64,000 bases of DNA from Mariniflexile maritimum (GTDB taxonomy: Bacteria; Bacteroidota; Bacteroidia; Flavobacteriales; Flavobacteriaceae): positions 186,001 through 250,000 of the forward strand of contig NZ_WRPN01000004.1 of assembly GCF_009746565.1 (NCBI RefSeq), given 5' to 3'. Position numbers and translations under genes: made by a program. The notes under the pieces were generated by a model. The model saw nothing but the letters and a program-made list of their open reading frames with translations. It was not told the origin of the DNA and ran no database searches. Shown piece after piece: positions 5,849-44,696 of the stretch (position 1 is its first letter; every line of letters begins with the position of its first letter).

Positions 5849-5892
5849 AAAGGAAGTTGATTTTATATTGACTTCCTTTTTTTTTTTTTTTT
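5849..5892 (+). terminator. Rho-independent terminator after nrdJ
   Basis: A perfect 9-bp stem (AAAGGAAGT with ACTTCCTTT, loop 13) runs straight into a 16-base T tract starting within the 3' arm. It begins 24 bases after the nrdJ stop. Confidence 0.9.
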
Positions 5893-5939
5893 GGTTTATT
5901 GGTTCGTTTAACGTTTATGTATAAAGAAATTTGCGTGTT

Positions 5940-6046
5940 TGTGTATGCCATTTTTCGTCTTGAGAATGAAGATAGCAGAAAAGAACCAAACTTTTGGTTA
6001 AGCTCTTAACTGCTATTTTTTATATAACGTGTTGTGGTTTGTATTT
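5940..6046 (-). repeat. Structured 3' repeat, copy A
   Basis: On the minus strand this begins at the stop codon of the next gene and reads AAATACAAACCACAACACG, then TATATAAAAAATAGCAG, an imperfect hairpin, and CTGCTATCTT. The 67-base core (5969-6035) matches copy B (43465-43531, plus strand) at about 59 or 60 of 67 positions by eye. The outer arms AATAGCAG/CTGCTAT pair and the apical stem AACCAA/TTGGTT closes an AAGT loop. Similarity to copies B and C continues weakly beyond the hairpin (a GACGAAAAATGGCATAC-like stretch). Confidence 0.8.
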
Positions 6047-6475
6047 TTAATAATCTATCCACCAAACACGTGTTCGTTTATATGAACAATCAGTTATTTT
6101 TTCAATTATGTATATGTATTCGAAAATCTGATTATACGATTCAATTATTCTTATTTTACCTGTTTTTTCTTTTCTTTCTTTTTCAATCATTTTATCAATA
6201 ATATTATTTCCTTCTTTATTTAAATTTTGGACTGTTGTGAATTTTATGTTTTTATATTTCTTTGAAGAAATAGTATCAACTTGATTGAATCTTTTGGTAT
6301 CAAACATATTACCATATATTTTGTAATATTTGATTTTGTTTTTTAAAATTAAACTATCTTTTGCACTGTTAAAAAACAAATATTTATCAGATTTATTTTG
6401 AGCATAAATAATATCATTAGTTAAAAAGATTATTAAAATAGTAATCGTTATTTTAATCACAAGTTTTGCTTCCAT
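6047..6475 (-). CDS. Small secreted protein of unknown function
   Basis: A 142-residue lysine- and isoleucine-rich protein. The start chosen is the Met at 6475, which gives a good signal peptide (MEAKLVIKITITILIIF up to YAQ); an upstream in-frame Met at 6490 would add five polar residues. The coding region overlaps the 3' end of the zincin-like lipoprotein gene by 23 bases, so the two are likely cotranscribed and translationally coupled. No motif is recognised. Composition is very AT-rich compared with purM or prfA, consistent with transferred DNA. As the small downstream partner of a putative protease it could be an inhibitor or immunity protein, but that is only inference from position. Confidence 0.6.
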   Translation of the reverse strand: MEAKLVIKITITILIIFLTNDIIYAQNKSDKYLFFNSAKDSLILKNKIKYYKIYGNMFDTKRFNQVDTISSKKYKNIKFTTVQNLNKEGNNIIDKMIEKERKEKTGKIRIIESYNQIFEYIYIIEKITDCSYKRTRVWWIDY

Positions 6476-7949
6476 TTGCTTTGTAGTCATTTATTGTTTG
6501 AATTATTCTATTTTGTTCATCAGCGGATAATTTATTCCAAGCATCAGTATATATTTGGTCATGTTCATTTGTAGAATTATGATCAGGAATGTTTGCTAAA
6601 CCTTCCCAAGCCATGTCATTGTAGAATTGATCAGAATGTCTGGCATTGTCAAATTGTTTTAATCCTTCAGCGATTGTAGCTCTATAAAATGCTGCCATTT
6701 GTTGGTGATCCCAATTCTTTTTGTACCTAAAGAAATCATAAATTCCAGGAAAGTCCTCTTTTGAAACTTTTCCTTCGTTTCTATAAACAAATTCCCATAA
6801 TCTTGCATGAATTCCTTCGTGAATAATTGTACGAGCTAAACCTAAAGCTGTCCTATCACCAATTGTGTTAGAATTAATGTTAATAATAAAGGTGTTTGGA
6901 ATACCACTATTTAGAGGTGTAGCAGTTGATGCATTTGTTGAATCACTGAGAGTTGAAGACATTTGAAATATTAGATTGAACTGTGATGGCCTGTCTCCAT
7001 CTTTAAAATTTTCAAGAATCCAATTAATATTATTTTTGCTATCCACCATTTTATTGTACACACAATCTGCCTTTCCTGTAAGTCCAGTCGCATCAATCTT
7101 ATCCTCCACTTCATTTTCGATCAAGATAACATCGGCATCATCCTCATAAACGCCGCCTGAGGTTTTTTTAGTGTAGATGCCTTCGTTATTATACCCATAA
7201 GGGTTTACCTCAGGCAGTGAACCGCCATTTGAAATGCAAACTTCCTCATAAACATAACCCGTGAACTGTGTATGTGTATATTCAATATAGGTTGTATGAT
7301 CCATTGTGTAGACTTTATACCAATCTGTATAGGTTGGAATGGCAATGGTTTCGCAGTTTGGTTCCTCCCTGCTGGCCAATGATGAGTTGGAGCTTCTCTT
7401 TGTCTTGAAAGGCATAATGTCAATAAGATTACCTTTGTTGAGTTTTTTTGAAAAAACAAGCTTTTTGTTTCTGTCCAATAAATGGACAATACCAGTAAAA
7501 TTTTCTGAATTACTAAAACTAACCTCTGAATTGATTAAGCTATCATTTGTGGTATCTACGTTTTGATAGAATTTTATAGTATAAAAATTGGACTCACCAG
7601 TATCATTAACGGTGGCCATGACTTTGTATTTGGTATAATAACCTCCTTTTTGCTGTACTTTGTTTAATTGATTTGGATTGAAAGTGGAAGTGAAATTGAC
7701 TGAAAACTCATAGTAAGAGGATTTCAATTCGTCTGAGTATAGTTTTTTTGGATTATCCAAATCGACGGTATATTCATAAGGGATTAAATTGCTAAAATCA
7801 CTTTGGTTGAATAAATGCTCTATTTGTAAAGGTTCGCTATTTTCTGGATTAACCTCGTAGTTGTCTTTTTCACAATTATAGGTAATGAGAAGTATGCAGG
7901 ATAGTATGATTACTGATTTTAAATAGCTTTTTAGTTTTTTTGTTTTCAT
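6453..7949 (-). CDS. Putative zinc metallopeptidase lipoprotein
   Basis: A 498-residue lipoprotein: basic N-terminus, hydrophobic segment and a lipobox ending at the cysteine in TYNCEKD, so it should be anchored in the envelope. Near residues 377-381 it has HEGIH, a match to the zincin signature HExxH, within a predicted helix (ARTIIHEGIHARLWE). A downstream third ligand is not certain; E/D/H candidates follow (the WDHQQM and AEGLKQF segments). The first ~370 residues are beta-rich and low-similarity, resembling an accessory or binding region. AT-rich, sits between nrdJ and prfA with the small secreted gene overlapping its end. I do not recognise a named family, and protease activity is inferred from the motif only. 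Confidence 0.65.
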   Translation of the reverse strand: MKTKKLKSYLKSVIILSCILLITYNCEKDNYEVNPENSEPLQIEHLFNQSDFSNLIPYEYTVDLDNPKKLYSDELKSSYYEFSVNFTSTFNPNQLNKVQQKGGYYTKYKVMATVNDTGESNFYTIKFYQNVDTTNDSLINSEVSFSNSENFTGIVHLLDRNKKLVFSKKLNKGNLIDIMPFKTKRSSNSSLASREEPNCETIAIPTYTDWYKVYTMDHTTYIEYTHTQFTGYVYEEVCISNGGSLPEVNPYGYNNEGIYTKKTSGGVYEDDADVILIENEVEDKIDATGLTGKADCVYNKMVDSKNNINWILENFKDGDRPSQFNLIFQMSSTLSDSTNASTATPLNSGIPNTFIININSNTIGDRTALGLARTIIHEGIHARLWEFVYRNEGKVSKEDFPGIYDFFRYKKNWDHQQMAAFYRATIAEGLKQFDNARHSDQFYNDMAWEGLANIPDHNSTNEHDQIYTDAWNKLSADEQNRIIQTINDYKANGSKTCD

Positions 7950-8253
7950 AAAGTGACCGTTGTTTAAAATTAATAAAATGTTTGTTAGTCTGCCCTATAT
8001 GAATCTCAACGTCTTGATATGAAATTTTTTATCTAATGTTAAACGAAGTTCGACTATTTTTCGCGTAAAGTCAAGTTTCAATTGCTTAAAAATTAGGTTG
8101 TTTTTTGCACTTCTATCGCCTTTTAAAATTTATGCAATTATTCACAGTAAATCTTAAAATTACTATTTTCACAACATCCTTCCCAATACTAACCAACCAA
8201 CAATAAAAAATCCATAAATTATCGTATTTTTGACCCACAATTTAAAAAAGTAA
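7950..8253. other. Divergent intergenic region with promoter-like element for prfA
   Basis: These 304 bases separate the minus-strand zincin gene from prfA. TATTTTTG at 8225-8232 fits the Bacteroidota -7 box, 21 bases before the prfA ATG. No ORF, RNA fold or repeat matching other parts of the window was seen. Confidence 0.5.
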
Positions 8254-42774: not shown

Positions 42775-43451
42775 ATGAAATACTATAAGCTAACAACAAT
42801 TGGTGCTAACAGAAATGAAATTGGAATCTCTCTCCAAAGTATAAGTGGTTACTTTGGAGATATTCAAAAAGATTTTATGCCCTTTGAAGGAAAAATAGAT
42901 TTTGATTTCGAATTGCCAATACCAAAATTACAAGATAAAGCAAACTTAACAACTATGTTGGACGTAGTGATGATACCATCAAAATTTCTCGTGGTACAAA
43001 ATCATTTTATAGAATTTTTTTAAAAATTTAATATAGGACACTATCAAAAATGGCCAATTAAAATAGAATATAAAAAGCTTTTATTCAAGACTACAGTTTG
43101 TTTTATTTAACCGAAACAAAACAAACAGACTACATTGATTTTGCTAAAAGTGAATTTTATATCGGTTCTCTAAAAGATTATACTTTAATAGGAAAGAATA
43201 TAAAAATAACCGACTATGAAAATTATCTAAGTTGTTTTGAAATTTTAAAAGAAGATAATCTATGGCTTAAACACAAAAAAATTGTATTGATCCTAAATAA
43301 TTCTAAAGACGACATGTTTAGAATTATTAATACTCCAGCGGGAGGCTACTATGCTTCGGAAAGATTAAAAAATGAAATTTTGAAGAAAAGATTTTCTGGA
43401 ATGGTATTTAAAGAAATTACGACTGACAGAAAAGTAGAAGTGATTTATTAA
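42775..43451 (+). pseudogene. Broken immunity-like gene (Imm11/DUF1629-like)
   Basis: Two frames join into one protein. The first (42775-43023) begins MKYYKLTTIGANRNEIGISL and stops at a TAA after HFIEFF. After that stop the same frame continues KFNIGHYQKWPIKIEY, then a one-base shift in the A run near 43072-43076 moves to the second frame, FIQDYSLFYLTETKQTDYID, ending at 43451. So there is a nonsense change plus a single-base deletion. The reconstructed ~225-residue protein with the late YYASERLKNEILKKRFSGM segment resembles Imm11/DUF1629 immunity proteins. It directly follows the toxin tail. Confidence 0.65.
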
Positions 43452-43575
43452 TAAAATACTGCCTACAACACGGTATATAAAAAATAGCAGTTAAAGGCTA
43501 AACCAAGAGTTTGCTTCTTTTATGCTATCTTTTTCCTAAACCGAAAATTGACACGTATAAATCTGCTCCATTTTC
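43452..43575 (+). repeat. Structured 3' repeat, copy B
   Basis: Starts right after the stop of the immunity-like gene: CTACAACACGGTATATAAAA, AATAGCA, hairpin, TGCTATCTTTTT, then CCGAAAATTGACACGTATAAA. Its core (43465-43531) matches copy A in inverted orientation. Base changes in the apical stem (GC-AAAC with GTTTGC here, AACCAA/TTGGTT in A) keep pairing, so the fold is conserved. The segment after the hairpin matches copy C. Confidence 0.82.
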
Positions 43576-43919
43576 ATATTCCAACAGGTTACCTTTAATG
43601 CTGAAAAGTCCGTTCCAAAACCAATGTTTCCGGTGAATTTTTAATTTGGGAAATCTAATTTTAGCCAATCTTTACGCTGTTTCATAGACTTCCATTAGCT
43701 TCCTGAAAGCAGATTTAAAACAACTGATTTTAATATGTATTACTGACAAAAAACTGACAGAAAAAAGCACTAAAAGCCAACACCGAATTAAAAAAATTGC
43801 TACTTTAGGCTTGTGCTTAGTTTGTTGCCCTGTTTGCCTGCTTCCAATTTTCCTACTGAAAATCGTCACATTCAAAAAAAGCAACTTTTTCCTAAAAATA
43901 AACACACTAACCGAACAAA

Positions 43920-43971: not shown

Positions 43972-44403
43972 ATGAAATCATTTAAACAAATTTTAATATT
44001 TTTTATCTATTTATTACTGTTAAATGGATGCTCTTCTATCAAGGAAGAATTAATTCCAACATATAATAAAGGTGGTTATAAAATGAAAATAGTAAAGTCC
44101 AATATCAAAGCTTCCTATTTAAAAATTTCAGGTAAAGTCTCTGATGTTATGAACAACAAACCTTTAGATAATGTTTACTTATCCATAGGGTGTAACAAAA
44201 TAAAAAATTCACAAAATGGAGAATATTCCATATTAATAAAAAACGATTTTAAAGATAATTATTTATTTGTTGAAGTAGTTTCTATTGGTTATAAAACAAT
44301 TCAAACAAAATTTATTAATATAACTAATGAAAGTGAAATTAAAATTGATTTTTATCTTACGGAAGATGATAGGCCCTTAATTAATTGTGAAGGAATTAAT
44401 TAG
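43972..44403 (+). CDS. Small lipoprotein with a carboxypeptidase-regulatory-like domain
   Basis: A 143-residue lipoprotein: signal peptide and lipobox LLLLNGCSS. Residues ~45-130 form a beta-sandwich of the CarboxypepD_reg type (ISGKVSDVMNNKPLDNVYLS ... VEVVSIGYKTIQTKFINI). That domain often starts outer-membrane receptors, but here it stands alone. It is strongly AT-rich and followed directly by repeat copy C. Function unknown. Confidence 0.72.
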   Translation: MKSFKQILIFFIYLLLLNGCSSIKEELIPTYNKGGYKMKIVKSNIKASYLKISGKVSDVMNNKPLDNVYLSIGCNKIKNSQNGEYSILIKNDFKDNYLFVEVVSIGYKTIQTKFINITNESEIKIDFYLTEDDRPLINCEGIN

Positions 44404-44520
44404 CAAATACAAACCATACACATTCATAATATTTTTTACGAGTTTATCCAAAAGTTTGGTTTTTTCTGCTATCTATATTTAAAACCAAAAATTGGCACGT
44501 ATAAATTTGCTGCTTTTCAT
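44404..44520 (+). repeat. Structured 3' repeat, copy C (diverged)
   Basis: Directly follows the lipoprotein stop. It opens CAAATACAAACCA as copy A does (AAATACAAACCA) and holds TCCAAAAGTTTGGT, then CTGCTATCTAT and AAAATTGGCACGTATAAATT, the last matching copy B (AAAATTGACACGTATAAAT). The left arm of the large hairpin is degraded, but the inner CCAA/TTGG pairing remains. Sequence to 44752 is AT-rich spacer. Confidence 0.7.
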
Positions 44521-44696
44521 ATACCAGAACATTGGTTGGTATTGTGTAAGTACTTAAAATCAGATAGTCTTCATTCCAAAAAAACGCCTCCCCATATTTG
44601 GTATCCTATACACGATACCAAATCTTAGATAATCAAAAATTCATAACAGATTTATTAATAATTGAAAAATATATTTTGAATTAAATTATTTTTTTA

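Follow-up and report, generated by a model that had tools for sequence, protein, structure and literature searches.

Introduction

Integrons have been reported to be rare in Bacteroidetes, where the IntegronFinder 2.0 survey names elements with an integrase only and a single complete integron, that of Salinibacter (PMC9024848). Classical integrons as a rule recognise the bottom strand of the recombination site (PMC8191803, PMC4792948), and the additional domain specific to the integron integrase IntI is described as necessary (PMC8138268), as is also stated in the part of PMC4792948 that cites Messier & Roy (2001). In the open-access literature, we found no description of flavobacterial integrons or of a cassette system such as the one reported here.

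We analysed a stretch of 64,000 nucleotides of Mariniflexile maritimum DNA (hereafter the window), in which an earlier note had reported three copies (A, B and C) of a structured repeat located after accessory genes. Two readings had been offered: a cassette-end recombination site with the logic of attC but another core, or a 3′ RNA stabiliser that had spread with its genes. The complementarity of cassette ends, exact breakpoints, an empty site and linked integrases with attI-like sites strongly support the former, and the repeat very probably serves as an attC-like recombination site in an integron-type cassette system of Bacteroidota whose integrase is of a non-IntI type.

Copies and structure of the element

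All three reported copies were recovered, both by BLAST and by R1, a covariance model built from 57 copies. Copy A (5904–6041, minus strand), in which the alignment places AAC at 6033 and the end of GTT at 5910, plus arms, scores 87.1 bits, copy B (43459–43596, plus strand) 77.7 bits and copy C (44404–44539, plus strand) 45.9 bits; these scores are partly by construction, since all three copies are in the seed set. Copy D (43771–43906, plus strand), which had been missed and is not a seed, scores 58.5 bits, and the next-best R1 match in the window has an E-value of only 0.28. A and B are 81% identical over about 108 bp. With B as the BLAST query against the whole 3.66-Mb genome, A and C were found at E-values of 1.2e-21 and 9.1e-14, respectively, and chance is therefore excluded. 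The core of ~67 bases described originally turned out to be the 5′ part of a longer unit, about 126 bp from AAC to GTT with an arm of ~11 nt on each side; the sequence AAATACAAACCA is the 5′ arm of this unit.

Elsewhere in the same genome, on the small contigs C14 and C15 and on others, same-strand copies lie mostly about 0.5–1.5 kb apart, and contigs often end within a copy. The median length of array cassettes is near 785 bp. The placement noted for the window copies, in the gene's sense and just after its stop codon, is general among array cassettes: in a set of 104, the longest ORF (at least 60 aa) was in the sense orientation in 85 of 89 cases, with the stop codon at a median of 12 nt before AAC. 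The observation that pairing is kept while the arm bases differ was likewise borne out, with 94.4% of cells paired across the 57 copies. Changes on both sides were seen in 18 of the 32 pairs, and cells with such changes numbered 96, compared to 30.7 after shuffling and no more than 18 when the controls were slid. RNAalifold recovered only the outer stem with default settings and the full structure with RIBOSUM scoring.

When circularised sites were folded with DNA parameters, the bottom strand was the more stable in 77 of 78 (mean −28.4 versus −23.4 kcal/mol). A mismatch at position 8 is mostly A/C on the top strand and G/T on the bottom strand. These folding energies suggest that flavobacterial sites would be recognised on the bottom strand. 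They also bear on the possibility that the element acts as RNA, in the form of a conserved hairpin at the 3′ ends of genes that would be either a terminator or an mRNA stabiliser and would have spread along with accessory genes through homologous recombination. Such a hairpin would account for the sense orientation, the location just past stop codons and the ability to fold, and yet the better folding is on the non-coding strand, and an Rfam search of the window at gathering scores gave no match. Nor does it predict or explain the complementarity between a cassette start and the next element, the A at position 8, the breakpoints, the gap-free empty sites and the linked recombinases described below. 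We regard this second reading of the earlier note as highly improbable.

Cassette ends, breakpoints and empty sites

We compared the 6 nt that follow GTT at the start of each cassette with the reverse complement of the 6 nt that precede AAC at the cassette's own downstream site. The match was perfect in 87 of 109 cassettes, with a mean of 5.39 out of 6; the two arms of the same site gave 2.47 and shuffled pairings 2.15, with a maximum of 2.61 in 1000 shuffles. Past the fixed mismatch at position 8, where the cassette start has A in 109/109, pairing restarts at positions 9–11. Together, the end complementarity and the position-8 pattern are what is predicted for a site that is completed only in the excised circle. 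The same held in independent named genomes, with a partner that matched perfectly over six bases for 28 of 30 sites and A at position 8 in every one of the 30. These sites come from eight loci that were retrieved later, with integrase sequence as the sole criterion. The partner was taken as the best GTT no more than 4 kb away, and we estimate that a perfect match would then arise by chance at a rate of the order of 1–2% per site.

The earlier note had asked where breakpoints fall relative to the repeat, and cassette edges lie precisely at the GTT junction. In the closed genome G014, a cassette of 557–558 bp is present at no fewer than seven places, and identity begins and ends at CGTT while the neighbouring sequences differ; two of the copies compared are one locus read twice, and their flanks naturally agree. 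The copies of this cassette, at loci L068–L071 and L102, are on a single chromosome. Cassettes of 741, 1364 and 704 bp likewise have exact breakpoints.

Lone cassettes with perfect ends are found at ordinary chromosomal positions in the window's genome. For one of 647 nt on contig C2 (G000:C2:131034–131683, corresponding to L279:5035–5684), five congeners have a gap-free empty site. The stretch that this cassette interrupts is conserved in the genus. A second lone cassette, at C2:41101, is absent from five congeners, with an alignment that is only approximate, in low-complexity intergenic DNA; it is therefore the 647-nt cassette (C2:131551) that we take as the clean empty-site case. As a main function, an RNA hairpin is refuted by the breakpoint and empty-site data, although a secondary RNA role is possible.

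Dispersed, hairpin-forming copies present many times per genome could also indicate a MITE or REP-like repeat that an HUH or DDE transposase carries to positions behind genes. However, the unit that moves is the gene together with the element rather than the element alone, the empty site is gap-free, with no target-site duplication beyond the shared GTT, and the linked protein is a tyrosine recombinase; no element-only insertions with empty sites were seen. It is very unlikely that the element is of this kind.

Linked recombinases and attI-like sites

The statement that no integrase is nearby is correct for the window itself, but there is an integrase gene on a different contig of this genome, accompanied by an attI-like site and the first cassette. 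The integrase gene is at G000:C37:1305–2426 (minus strand), the attI-like sequence ...GGGGATATAAACAA|GTT is at C37:1169, and the first cassette, which carries a nucleotidyltransferase-like gene (named by eye), has its site at C37:112–248. The search for a linked tyrosine recombinase, which had been suggested as a check, usually found one at the array end, beside an attI-like site.

Because the loci that first revealed this linkage had been selected partly for their arrays, we repeated the comparison on 40 loci picked by integrase score rank. By our count, in which one locus re-reads an earlier one, 22 had an array downstream on the same strand, 3 had a divergent array, 9 had none and 6 had too little contig. 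The nine had enough downstream sequence and no R1 site; R1 derives from a single lineage and misses distant sites, and for the divergent clade this tally covered little of the upstream sequence. A scan of GTDB gave nine loci with sites, all from Bacteroidota, with the sites downstream of the integrase gene in eight and divergent in one (L223); the loci from other phyla had no sites. Independent linked cases include Algibacter onchidii, Winogradskyella ursingii, Seonamhaeicola aphaedonensis and others.

The position of the attI-like site was found by predicting the start of the first cassette from complementarity. It is 30–136 bp past the integrase stop codon in most co-directional cases and 69–150 bp before the start codon in divergent ones; in L102 and L116 the first recognised cassette start is far from the integrase. 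A divergent arrangement of array and integrase gene, which classical integrons also have, is seen in L110, L112, L113, L165, L170, L180 and L223. Some of the integrases with this layout are short (~280 aa) and have no N-terminal extension.

The integrases retain the catalytic residues, and most have an N-terminal alpha/beta extension. The array-end tyrosine recombinases resemble the integron-integrase model (TIGR02249) but score below its cut-off, which was reached in none of the 100 genomes. None of the 56 proteins measured has the IntI-specific insertion; in these proteins the distance from KGxKDR to HxLRH has a median of 58 residues and a maximum of 59, versus 100 in IntI1. The closest solved folds are those of archaeal Xer (4a8e, 5hxy) and IntI (2a3v), and for the catalytic part the best-scoring NCBI model is NF040815, which one of three proteins passes. 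In the integrase tree, which comprises several clades, layout follows clade, and IntI1 is placed outside, a placement that is unsure since IntI1 is joined by a long branch; IntI1 and E. coli XerD served as reference sequences.

These data bear on whether we are dealing with an ordinary integron, with classical attC sites and a divergent IntI, in which case only the distribution would be new. The cassettes, the G/TT junction, the arms completed on circularisation, the bottom-strand bias in folding and attI are all alike; 2a3v is among the closest folds and the name of NF040815 contains 'integron integrase'. Against this reading stand the IntI cut-off that no genome reached, the insertion missing throughout, the position of IntI1 outside on its long branch, and the GTTRRRY consensus, found in only 5 of 109 cassettes. 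We consider it unlikely. Set beside the defining features of integrons, the sites have attC-like structures at cassette ends with complementary arms and an AAC/GTT crossover, and attI is located beside the integrase gene, at the insertion point of the first cassette. The folding bias and the covariation would fit recombination that depends on the structure of the site and on its bottom strand. The IntI-specific domain was found in none of the integrases measured, and the classical RYYYAAC/GTTRRRY core is mostly lacking, the second position of the arm never being A. Since the domain and the consensus both fail, we describe the system as one that works like an integron, and not as a member of the IntI family.

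The loci in the window

The window copies are decayed dispersed cassettes of this integron-type system: B, D and C form a small decayed array, and A stands alone. Partner cassette starts were sought in the window for A, B and C; a plausible one, decayed and partial, was found for A only, and none was recognisable for B or C.

Copy A is the 3′ end of a dispersed cassette. Directly upstream of it, an ORF of 147 aa (6047–6490, minus strand; from the ORF list), for which a Pfam search gave no match, would be the second gene of the proposed cassette. The other cassette gene (6453–7949, minus strand) encodes a secreted lipoprotein-like protein of 498 aa with a HEGIH zincin-like motif; it is 22% identical (E=7e-5) to the ORF of the intact cassette L072, and the two cassettes share a site subtype. 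The probable start of the cassette, ...ATCAAGAC|GTTGAGATTCATAT (7996–8012, minus strand), is decayed, with 4/6 arm matches, A at position 8 and 3/3 matches at positions 9–11. Homology with the congener L189 ends at about 5882–5891 and restarts at 8036, compared to predicted cassette ends of 5910 and 8010; because relatives hold other DNA there, we treat these edges as supporting evidence. The congeners compared have different accessory DNA in the interval corresponding to 5889–8036, between the ribonucleotide reductase and peptide-chain-release-factor genes, and one of them, L190, has its own weak site match there.

The attC-like copy B directly follows an ORF of 117 aa (43098–43451, plus strand; from the ORF list), which had been called a broken gene and for which a Pfam search gave no match. 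We found no relation between this protein and the ORF of the cassette that matches copy B at its end. The segment from B to the decayed copy D is a cassette remnant devoid of an ORF, and its start (GTTACCTTTAATGCT) is identical to that of a cassette on contig C17 of the same genome. Between D and the degenerate copy C, an ORF (43972–44403, plus strand) encodes a lipoprotein of 143 aa with a weak match to CarbopepD_reg_2, below Pfam's cut-off.

Distribution, cargo and mobility

R1 matches, often in same-strand arrays with a site every 0.5–1.5 kb, were present in 82 of 100 sampled Flavobacteriaceae genera, and matches were present in 32 of 148 Bacteroidota genomes, with the hits per genome counted up to a cap. 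Most sampled Flavobacteriaceae genera and some other Bacteroidota seem to have an integron-like means of gathering accessory genes. Its diverse cargo includes WapI/Imm33-like immunity, EcoO109I-like restriction, retron PRTase, PD-T7-4, Qat/KAP and NucC-like genes as well as DUFs. In a closed congener (G248:C1, about 3632139–3683682), some 50 kb of same-strand site matches are probably a very large array.

The Winogradskyella phage Peternella_1 has one site (NC_062754.1, 11079–11205, minus strand; L272:4001–4127) that is 82% identical to an array site and is not on the strand of the adjoining annotated genes. Phages may therefore transport cassettes, as this site suggests. A plasmid search with one array site returned no match.

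A model for cassette movement

The computed site structure, cassette ends, exact breakpoints, empty sites, recombinase linkage and strand-biased folding are consistent with the following scheme. A cassette begins at GTT, usually contains one sense ORF and has the hairpin element at its end. The last arm of the element complements the first bases of its own cassette, so that the full site exists only in the excised circle. The tyrosine recombinase encoded beside the attI-like site, which ends in |GTT, would bind the folded bottom strand and exchange strands at GTT, and the cassette would then be placed at attI, between two existing cassettes or at a secondary GTT site in the chromosome. Linkage and homology point to the linked recombinase as the probable actor in the exchange; the use of the bottom strand as single-stranded DNA and the exact position of the cut inside GTT are likewise predictions of the model.

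We consider the evidence evenly balanced as to whether this is a separate, widespread and unrecognised integron lineage of Bacteroidota, in which folded single-stranded sites are recombined without the IntI domain, through either an independent origin from an enzyme like Xer or a branching that preceded the gain of the domain. Such a system, in most of the sampled Flavobacteriaceae genera, would mean that important bacteria of the sea and the soil hold a large and hidden store of mobile accessory genes, defence genes among them, and would explain why many of their small genes of unknown function lie beside a hairpin. It also makes testable the need for the IntI-specific domain in the recombination of folded single-stranded DNA.

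Comparison with known systems

Xer-dif or pdif modules, with dif-like sites of ~28 bp and XerCD, were considered and rejected, as the sites described here are hairpins of ~126 bp with dedicated linked recombinases. Archaeal XerA and related Xer recombinases (4a8e, 5hxy; NF040815) provide the closest folds and the best NCBI model for the catalytic part, but the flavobacterial enzymes, unlike Xer, are linked to arrays and mostly have an extra N-terminal alpha/beta domain. We know of no cassette arrays associated with XerA or Xer recombinases. The description of CALIN, which are attC clusters that lack an integrase, or of lone attC elements fits B-D-C, A and the lone cassettes of the same genome, except that the sites depart from the classical R′/R″ consensus.

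The closest parallel is with chromosomal integrons, such as the Vibrio superintegron. Unlike these, the flavobacterial integrase lacks the IntI insertion and mostly has an N-terminal extension of ~100 residues. Unlike in classical integrons, its gene is usually upstream of the array and co-directional with it, with attI at its 3′ end, and only a minority shares the divergent classical layout; the arm consensus is GTT-R-[TCG]-N4-[AC]-A rather than GTTRRRY, with a conserved A/C mismatch at arm position 8 and a long (~126-nt), partly sequence-conserved core. In common with chromosomal integrons, the system has cassettes of one gene in a single orientation, a GTT/AAC core and arms completed on circularisation, a folded structure that is kept over sequence, a bottom strand that folding energies suggest is favoured, an attI beside the integrase gene and dispersed cassettes at secondary sites.
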